This document shows positions 11,595 through 14,500 of a DNA stretch of 64,000 nt, one piece after another. Every line of letters begins with the position of its first letter. The stretch's first letter is position 1. The notes beneath the pieces are model-generated. The model made no database searches. It was not told the DNA's origin and saw only the letters and a program-made list of their open reading frames with translations. The stretch is from Lytechinus variegatus (lineage: Eukaryota; Echinodermata; Echinoidea; Temnopleuroida; Toxopneustidae): contig NC_054746.1 of assembly GCF_018143015.1 (NCBI RefSeq), forward strand, positions 35,310,830 through 35,374,829. Direction: 5' to 3'. Position numbers and translations under genes: made by a program.

Positions 11595-14500
11595 CTGTCA
11601 GAAAATTATCATCAGAATTTTTGAAAATGTTAAAGCACTTATGAAACTGGGACCAGATTCATAAAAAGTAAAAACTGTGGCAACTTTGCTATTATTATGG
11701 CGACTACCATGGTAAACTTAATTGTGATTGGCTGCTGAGCCTCGTTACCATGGTTGTTATATTCATAATGACAAATTTATTTATTAAGTTGTTTGTCCTT
11801 TATAAAACGGGCCCCCGAACTTATTAAAAATAAGTGAAGGTGTGCTAATCATAACTTTGCAACCTTCACAACTTTCTTTGGCCCATGGCAGAGAGAGAGA
11901 GTTGTATTCAAAAGCAACTATTTCTGCAACGGGCCCCTGAAATTACAACACCAGTACAAGAAGCTTGAAATTGCTAGTATTTCATGTATACAACCTGAAC
12001 CTATCAGTTGTAGGTGATATCTTCACACCATTATGTAATTATTTTCTCATACTTGTTTTTTTTTTTAAACAATTCCAAGTGTATAATTGTTCATTCCCTG
12101 TTTTTTCCTTTAATGACATCCATATTTTTAATCAATTTAACCAACCAAACTGCAATAAAAATAACCACACACCTGCTTTCTTCAATAGAAGTAAAAACAG
12201 GTAAAACATAAATTCTTAATGACATTGCCACAAGTCTGTACATTTACTTTCAAATATCACCAAACCAAACAAGAACTTCACATAATATAACATACTAAAA
12301 TCAAACTAAACAACATATTGTTACAAGACAGAGAACACTAGTAAACTTGAATGTGCACTCCAAAGATTCTTATGACACAAATTGAAGGACACACACAGTA
12401 GAACTCTTTATGCTTGACTGTAAGCAAATTTAAACTGAATGTATTAACCATATACGCTTTACTAGTATTCAGTGAATAATTCTGTAAATTACCACAATGA
12501 AACCACTCAAACCAAAACCTACTCCCAGAGACAAAAACCTCACCAACATGTCAACAGACTCACCCTAAAAGGGCTTAAACATACTGCAGTTACCACCTAG
12601 AGGATTCATAATGGATGTAAAGAATAAATGCTAAAGCAATTAAAGCACAGAGTGTTGCATGGGTGATGACGAAGCCAGGGAAACAGCTCTGGGTAGCATA
12701 CAAATAGTCCAGTACAATTTACCAATGCCCATAATTCCAAAAGGAATAAGGGTGGTTTTCAAATTTATTGCTTACAACTCATTTATAAGCAAGAAATTTG
12801 CATTCTTGATTAATCAATGATTGTTCATCTTTTTTTAAGCAATTAGATTTTTGGGGGGAGGTGGGTTGAGATTATGAAAAAAAGTGATTTCAGAGTTAGA
12901 AGTTTCAACATTTTCACACATTCCTGAAAGATGAGCCTGTGTCCTTCTTCATCTGAACCAAATAAGTGATTTCAGAGTTTGAAATTTCACATTTTTTTTC
13001 ACTCATACCTCAAAGATGAGCCTCTGTCCTTCTGTGTCCTCATTCATCTGAACCAAAGAAGTGATTTCAGAGTTTGAAATTGCAACATTTTCACTCATAC
13101 CTCAAAGATGAGCCTCTGTCCTTCTGTGTCCTCATTCATCTGAACCACAGAAGTGATTTTAGAGTTTGAAATCACAACATTTTTACTCATACCTCAAAGA
13201 TGAGCCTCTGTCCTTCTGTGTCCTCATTCATCTGAACCAAAGAAGTGATTTCAGAGTTTGAAATTACAACATTTTCAATCATACCTCAAAGATGAGCCTC
13301 TGTCCTTCTGTGTCCTCATTCATCTGAACCAAAGAAGTGATTTCAGAGTTTGAAATTACAACATTTTTCACTCATACCTCAAAGATGAGCCTCTGTCCTT
13401 CTGTGTCCTCATTCATCTGAACCAAAGAAGTGATTTTAGAGTTTGAAATTACAACATTTTTACTCATACCTCAAAGATGAGCCTCTGTCCTTATTCATCT
13501 GAACCAAAGAAGTCATTTTAGAGTTTGAAATTACAACATTTTTACTCATACCTCAAAGATGAGCCTCTGTCCTTCTGTGTCCTCATTCATCTGAACCAAA
13601 GAAGTGATTTCAGAGTTTGAAATTACAATATTTTCACTCATACCTCAAAGATGAGCCTCTGTCCTTCTGTGTCCTCATTCATCTGAACCAAAGAAGTGAT
13701 TTTAGAGTTTAAAATTACAACATTTTTACTCATACCTCAAAGATGAGCCTCTGTCCTTCTGTGTCCTCATTCATCTGAACCAAAGAAGTGATTTCAGGGT
13801 TTGAAATTGCAACATTTTCACTCATACCTCAATAGTGTGCCTTTGTCCTGTGTCCTCATTCATCTGAACAAGTGTTTATTACCATTATCTGATAACTGTA
13901 GTTGATCAATATCTACATAATGCCACAAACTCGCAAGGAATCTGCTTCTCATTCTCAAGCTGCATTACAAAGTCATACATCTGTTTCTAATATTGGTGTT
14001 GAGCTCTTCAAAAATGAGTCATTTCTCAATGAAATCCGTATTCTTGCCAAAACAATTGCAAATGAGGTTGTGAATTCTACTTTCACTAAATTCAGCCAGC
14101 ACATTGAACAGAATAATGGTAAACTACATGATCTACAAGTGGAAATGGATGACAAAAAAAGTTGTATAAGAGCGTTAAATTTCAGCAAAGGAGGAGAGAA
14201 TGATAAATCTGAAGCACGCCACTAATGAACTTCAACAATATTCTCAACATTCATCGCTTCAAATATTTGATGTCAAGGAGGATAAAAATAAAAGCATACA
14301 GATCAGATCATTCGTGGAATTGCAAAGGATTATCACAGAATTTCCTTATCGCAGTGTGACATCGATCAATCACATCATGTTGGTAGGCATGGCTGACATC
14401 ATCATCGAGCAATTATTGTCAAATTCTGCTCTTATCGCAAGCGATCTGAAGTCATTCAAGCACATAAAAAACTGAAGAATACAGGAATCACAATCCAAGA

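Follow-up and report, generated by a model that had tools for sequence, protein, structure and literature searches.

The intron that follows exon 27 of the Lytechinus variegatus LRRC9 gene (numbering of isoform X1) contains an array of 11 tandem units of ~92 bp, located at 12924–13863 on the minus strand of the window, i.e., the whole 64,000-nucleotide stretch of DNA analysed here. We read the array as a local intronic minisatellite that carries a weak pseudo-exon and is normally removed together with the intron, a reading to which we give a probability of about two in three. On this account, tandem amplification of a ~92 bp stretch of the intron would have given rise to the 11 copies, with some homogenisation among them. 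The interior copies would by chance carry an ordinary donor and a weak acceptor, eight of them with an open 39-nt phase-0 interval; the presence of a donor, a weak acceptor, and an open interval in each such copy would make it a pseudo-exon. We infer that the units are normally not spliced in, and rare or low-level inclusion of a unit is possible.

Array structure and host intron

The host gene was established by mapping the X1 isoform of the L. variegatus LRRC9-like protein (P0001) exon by exon onto the minus strand of the window. The mapping runs from 34924 to 9926, accounts for 1516 of 1517 residues, with the single unmapped residue lying across an exon junction, and defines 30 introns. The host gene named in the preliminary description of this DNA is therefore borne out. 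That description placed the array between exons 27 and 28; the upstream exon stands, but the downstream exon is exon 29 of X1, because the description overlooked a cassette exon of 33 nt that is annotated within this intron (Table 1). In P0001, exon 27 is followed by the 11-residue cassette peptide and then by PSSMM. Among window sites, the cassette ranks in the top 0.5% by its acceptor and in the top 0.3% by its donor, scored with matrices for which this exon was itself part of the training set. A search with the predicted C-terminal part of the protein found 62 LRRC9 homologs, among which the length of the linker in this region differs. The phase-0 cassette is present in L. variegatus X1 and in none of the 61 other aligned homologs at that junction. 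When the sequence of one LRR exon was searched against the PDB, the best 60 of 246 entries included other LRR proteins and none named LRRC9, and a search for literature on LRRC9 in sea urchins found none.

Tandem Repeats Finder reports the array as 12937–13869, with a period of 92, 10.2 copies, 92% match, and a score of 1548, the highest of the 21 rows for the window. On the gene strand, TTCAG precedes all 11 bodies, and the donor GTATGA is kept in 10 of 11 units. The bodies of units 2, 3, 4, 6, 7, 8, 9, and 10 are identical 39-mers (ATGAATGAGG...TTTGAG) that are in phase 0-0, lack a stop codon, and translate to 13 residues; the exact 39-mer gives eight matches, against a mean of 0 in 100 shuffles. 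Units 1 and 11 are diverged array edges, while unit 5 is interior. Spacers are 53 nt long, except after unit 6 (54 nt) and unit 10 (56 nt), and unit 11 is followed by unique sequence. The spacer has two main forms, told apart by two sites with linked G/A changes; these forms are interleaved along the array: form A is found in units 1, 3, 6, 7, 9, 10, and 11, and form B in units 2, 4, 5, and 8. The repeat finder and the comparison of units thus agree with the preliminary description on the number and length of the units, the eight identical bodies, and the donor, as well as on the two copies with a 10-nt deletion. Its frame arithmetic also holds, since the 39-nt body is open and the exons flanking the intron are in phase 0 on both sides. 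Nevertheless, only 9 of the 11 bodies are divisible by three, so the frame is not preserved by every unit.

Table 1. Exons and array units of the LRRC9 intron, in window positions and in gene order
Feature	Position	Strand	Length	Remarks
LRRC9 exon 27	15146..15271	-		Ends ...ELYFMEQQ, phase 0; matches L. variegatus LRRC9 X1
Unit 1 body	13828..13863	-	36 nt, 12 residues	Donor GTATGA; acceptor flank diverged (array edge)
Unit 2 body	13736..13774	-	39 nt, 13 residues	
Unit 3 body	13644..13682	-	39 nt, 13 residues	
Unit 4 body	13552..13590	-	39 nt, 13 residues	
Unit 5 body	13470..13498	-	29 nt, 10 nt missing	Frame shifted if included
Unit 6 body	13378..13416	-	39 nt, 13 residues	
Unit 7 body	13285..13323	-	39 nt, 13 residues	
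Unit 8 body	13193..13231	-	39 nt, 13 residues	
Unit 9 body	13101..13139	-	39 nt, 13 residues	
Unit 10 body	13009..13047	-	39 nt, 13 residues	
Unit 11 body	12924..12952	-	29 nt, 10 nt missing	Broken donor (GAATG); would frameshift
Annotated cassette exon, isoform X1	12564..12596	-	33 nt, 11 residues	Strong splice sites; in the array's intron
Next LRRC9 exon after the cassette (exon 29, X1)	11411..11594	-		Phase 0 start

The array is private to this locus. In a search of the 870-Mb assembly (33 contigs) with a single unit, all 12 of 12 matches fell inside the array; the search omits very common words, so its match counts are lower bounds, and it is at this sensitivity that the array is a single locus. 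With short units arranged head to tail at one locus within an intron, the array qualifies as an intronic minisatellite. A transposon origin was considered and rejected: the array is not framed by terminal inverted repeats, and the genome search, at the sensitivity given above, revealed no further copy. On the plus strand, broken open frames at 13902–14690 adjoin the array; we take these to resemble a decayed non-LTR retrotransposon ORF1.

Splice sites, spacing, and reading frame

Splice-site weight matrices were built from the 30 mapped LRRC9 introns and used at four settings. The preliminary description had noted a donor on each full unit, and an acceptable donor is indeed present in 10 of 11 units: GAG/GTATGA ranks 8–10 of the 30 real donors and falls in the top 2% of all GT. 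The acceptors of units 1, 2, 5, 9, and 11 rank 0–2 of the 30 real LRRC9 acceptors across the four settings; with a small pseudocount, the acceptors of all 11 units rank 0 of 30, and larger pseudocounts give 0–2. Among AG sites in the window, 32–55% score at least as high as the acceptors of units 1, 2, 5, and 11, and 67–79% at least as high as that of unit 9. In other words, the unit acceptor scores with the poorest of the real LRRC9 acceptors, roughly as an ordinary AG of the window does.

How often such an interval would arise by chance was estimated from random 92-mers of the LRRC9 introns, placed in tandem, with 20,000 draws per strand. An open phase-0 AG..GT interval of 20–84 nt was present in 67% of sense and 59% of antisense 92-mers. 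The summed splice score of an open phase-0 exon equalled or exceeded that of the unit in 8.5% of sense and 4.5% of antisense controls. Both sites each scored at least as high as those of the unit in 0.2% of sense controls, a double threshold that is fitted to the unit. Because about two-thirds of random tandem 92-mers hold an open phase-0 interval, readings of this type made from raw sequence need an acceptor score and RNA.

The preliminary description proposed that many copies are included, yielding a tract of 13-residue repeats with a length that depends on splicing or on copy number. The frame permits part of this: one intact copy, or all eight joined, keeps the frame, and together the eight identical bodies could lengthen the protein by 104 residues with no stop codon. 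Serial inclusion of every unit was rejected, however, because units 1–10 joined in order run into a stop codon where unit 6 begins. Unit 5, which is interior to the array, has the same donor flank as its neighbors and a single changed base in its acceptor tract, and its inclusion alone leads to a frameshift and a stop. The model would also require introns of 53 nt. The description had itself remarked that the spacers would be unusually short introns; at 53–56 nt, they are less than half the length of the shortest real LRRC9 intron, taking as the minimum that of this gene only (LRRC9 introns range from 116 to 2,549 nt, and the next shortest after 116 nt is 298 nt). Finally, the tract is absent from X1, the representative of its sequence cluster. 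We regard this model as very improbable.

Another form of exon use, which we consider unlikely but the least so of the alternatives, is that one copy, or rarely two non-adjacent copies, is spliced in as a minor alternative exon. The array would then act as a group of nearly identical exons that exclude one another sterically, its copy number would raise the chance that a weak acceptor is used, and the product would be LRRC9 with ~13 acidic residues added to the linker before the C-terminal tail. Adjacent copies could not be joined, because the 53-nt spacer sets the donor and the branch point too close together. The distance between them in adjacent units would be <50 nt, and in work on human mutually exclusive exons (PMC5740500), a donor-to-branch-point distance of <50 bp is counted as potential steric interference. 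The 0-0 phase, the open frame, and the rank of the donor are as this model would have them; the intron already holds an annotated phase-0 cassette, and linker length is variable among homologs. Against these stand the weak acceptor, a summed score that 4.5–8.5% of control 92-mers match, and the fact that unit 5 is about equally likely to be chosen and would shift the frame. A still more specific version, in which eight or nine near-identical LRRC9 micro-exons are interchangeable and made sterically exclusive by the 53-nt spacers, with copy number tuning an acidic insert of 12–13 residues, we consider distinctly doubtful.

The unit peptide is also missing from the protein records examined, which counts against its use as a minor exon. 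None of six five-residue words taken from it occurs in any of the 62 LRRC9 homologs at the protein level. The peptide is thus absent from two further close relatives, P0002, with 80% identity over the region searched, and P0003, from the urchin Diadema setosum, as well as from isoform X1, which represents a cluster of 11 L. variegatus LRRC9 sequences; an isoform with the peptide may be found among the other members of that cluster. When the peptide was searched as three copies placed between its flanks, ten matches resulted, with the peptide in none of the seven examined; as five copies, it matched one protein, with an unrelated DTEGQR repeat.

Variation among the units

If the bodies were used as exons, they might be expected to vary less than the spacers, and a comparison of substitutions in the two had been suggested as a check. 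The outcome depends on which units are compared. In a MAFFT alignment of units 2–10, substitutions affect none of the 39 columns of the body, as against 12 of the 53 columns outside it (Fisher p = 0.001), as the coding proposal would have it. With all 11 units, the difference weakens to 6/39 body versus 19/53 other variable columns (p = 0.035). With one edge unit included, there are 2 variable body columns versus 16 others for units 2–11 (p = 0.003) and 5 versus 15 for units 1–10 (p = 0.12). The contrast between body and spacer is therefore real yet moderate, and depends in part on omitting the edge units. The spacers had been said to differ at roughly nine or ten sites, which is close to our own counts: 9 variable columns among units 2–9, 10 when the C>A change of unit 10 is added, and 12 among units 2–10 by MAFFT.

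Two further ways of counting lead to a similar result. First, the longest invariant run spans 53 of 92 columns, with a probability of ~0.002 if 10 variable columns are placed at random; this block consists of the 39-nt body, 8 nt of the acceptor, and 6 nt of the donor. Second, if the deletion in unit 5 is counted as an event in the body, the probability of at most 1 of 11 events falling in the body is 0.021, and when spacer indels and the changes in unit 10 are added, the probability of at most 1 of 14 is 0.005. An invariant body with invariant splice sites among the interior units is the pattern that a used exon would show, and the extent of the block over both body and splice sites is a point in favor of a minor exon. 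By comparison with the common body, however, that of unit 1 has three amino acid replacements and one silently changed codon, along with a 3-nt loss that keeps the frame, and thus shows no clear amino acid constraint. Other tandem arrays were sought as controls in 200 kb; there were three with at least 4 copies and a period of at least 40, none of them comparable. The uneven variation is more likely to reflect mutation that was uneven, or homogenisation that was patchy, than coding selection. Overall, a coding tract of variable length is disfavored by the weakness of the acceptor, the rate at which exon-like intervals arise by chance, the short spacers, the frameshift in unit 5, and the changes in unit 1, together with the presence of a different cassette in X1 and of the peptide in 0 of 62 homologs.

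Comparison with known elements and other repeats in the window

Of the Rfam families, only RF00055 (SNORD96) has an E-value below 1 in the region, and the match looked promising because it spans the unit end to end. If it were genuine, the unit would be the gene of a SNORD96-like box C/D snoRNA amplified within the intron. On the gene strand, RF00055 aligns with nine of 11 units over their whole length, at 17.5–25.7 bits; four of the nine have E-values of at most 1, the best being 0.044. A CTGA D box is present in 7 of 11 units, and 6 of those 7 have a TGGTT/AATCA terminal stem. However, the best score of 25.7 bits is well short of the gathering score of 43, and no match in the window is above the cut-off. 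CTAA replaces the D box in 4 of 11 units, there is no perfect C box at the right distance from the D box (the best has 6 of 7 bases), and folding z-scores of the units are only −0.2 to −0.7. Loose C/D arrangements are frequent in any case: with a C box of 6 of 7 and a stem of 4 of 5, there are 22 on the plus strand and 30 on the minus strand outside the array, i.e., about one per 2–3 kb per strand of the window. A genome search, in which 50 of 323,173 first-look candidates were scored, gave four other loci with 25.7–30.4 bits, none above the cut-off, among the matches listed, and the array was not among them. These four loci resemble the unit no better than shuffled sequence does, with the exception of L011 against unit 7 (27 versus a shuffled maximum of 25). 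Low-scoring matches also occur in 8 of 14 control genomes, all of them prokaryotes. Given the sub-threshold score, the loss of the D box in 4 of 11 units, and the matches in the genome and in control genomes, we rejected a SNORD96-like array as chance-level, and its being real seems to us highly unlikely.

Three other systems resemble the array in part. In Schistosoma micro-exon genes (MEGs), symmetric exons are arranged in tandem, separated by longer introns, and expressed. The LRRC9 array likewise consists of short, phase-symmetric, exon-like units in series, but its spacers are only 53–56 nt and its exon use is putative. Tandem clusters of mutually exclusive exons, as described for human and other genes (PMC5740500 and PMC6071210), share with the array a copied flanking intron and spacing in the steric range; in contrast to these, the intact LRRC9 copies all encode one peptide, the acceptor is weak, the frame is shifted by two of the copies, and use of the units as exons is putative. 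The third is CeRep25B of Caenorhabditis elegans, a 24-base repeat with clusters on chromosome III (PMC4039745). Like CeRep25B and intronic minisatellites near alternative exons, the array is a short tandem intronic repeat, here with an annotated cassette in its intron; it differs in having a unit of 92 bp, a single locus, and an open, exon-like interval in the unit.

The significance of the array depends on whether any unit is spliced in. If so, a new exon would here have arisen from the expansion of a minisatellite, through redundancy of weak splice sites, and variation in copy number would provide an inbuilt test. Otherwise, the array illustrates how readily tandem intronic repeats mimic frame-preserving arrays of exons.

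Other tandem repeats are present in the window. One with a period of 163 bp lies at 59794–60521, and repeats of this period occur twice in 200 kb nearby (L017 7503–8383 and L018 9179–9909). A repeat with a period of 81/73 bp lies at 27506–27772 in another LRRC9 intron, just downstream, on the gene strand, of the exon ending at 27788. Lastly, LRRC9 exon 13 has its 3′ portion, donor included, in three tandem copies with a period of 123 bp (25262–25615, minus strand). Copy 2 differs from copy 1 by only five synonymous changes over 96 nt, and copy 3 has a stop codon. In X1, splicing is from the donor of copy 1. The reading frame stays open across copy 2, and splicing from the donor of that copy would add 41 residues.
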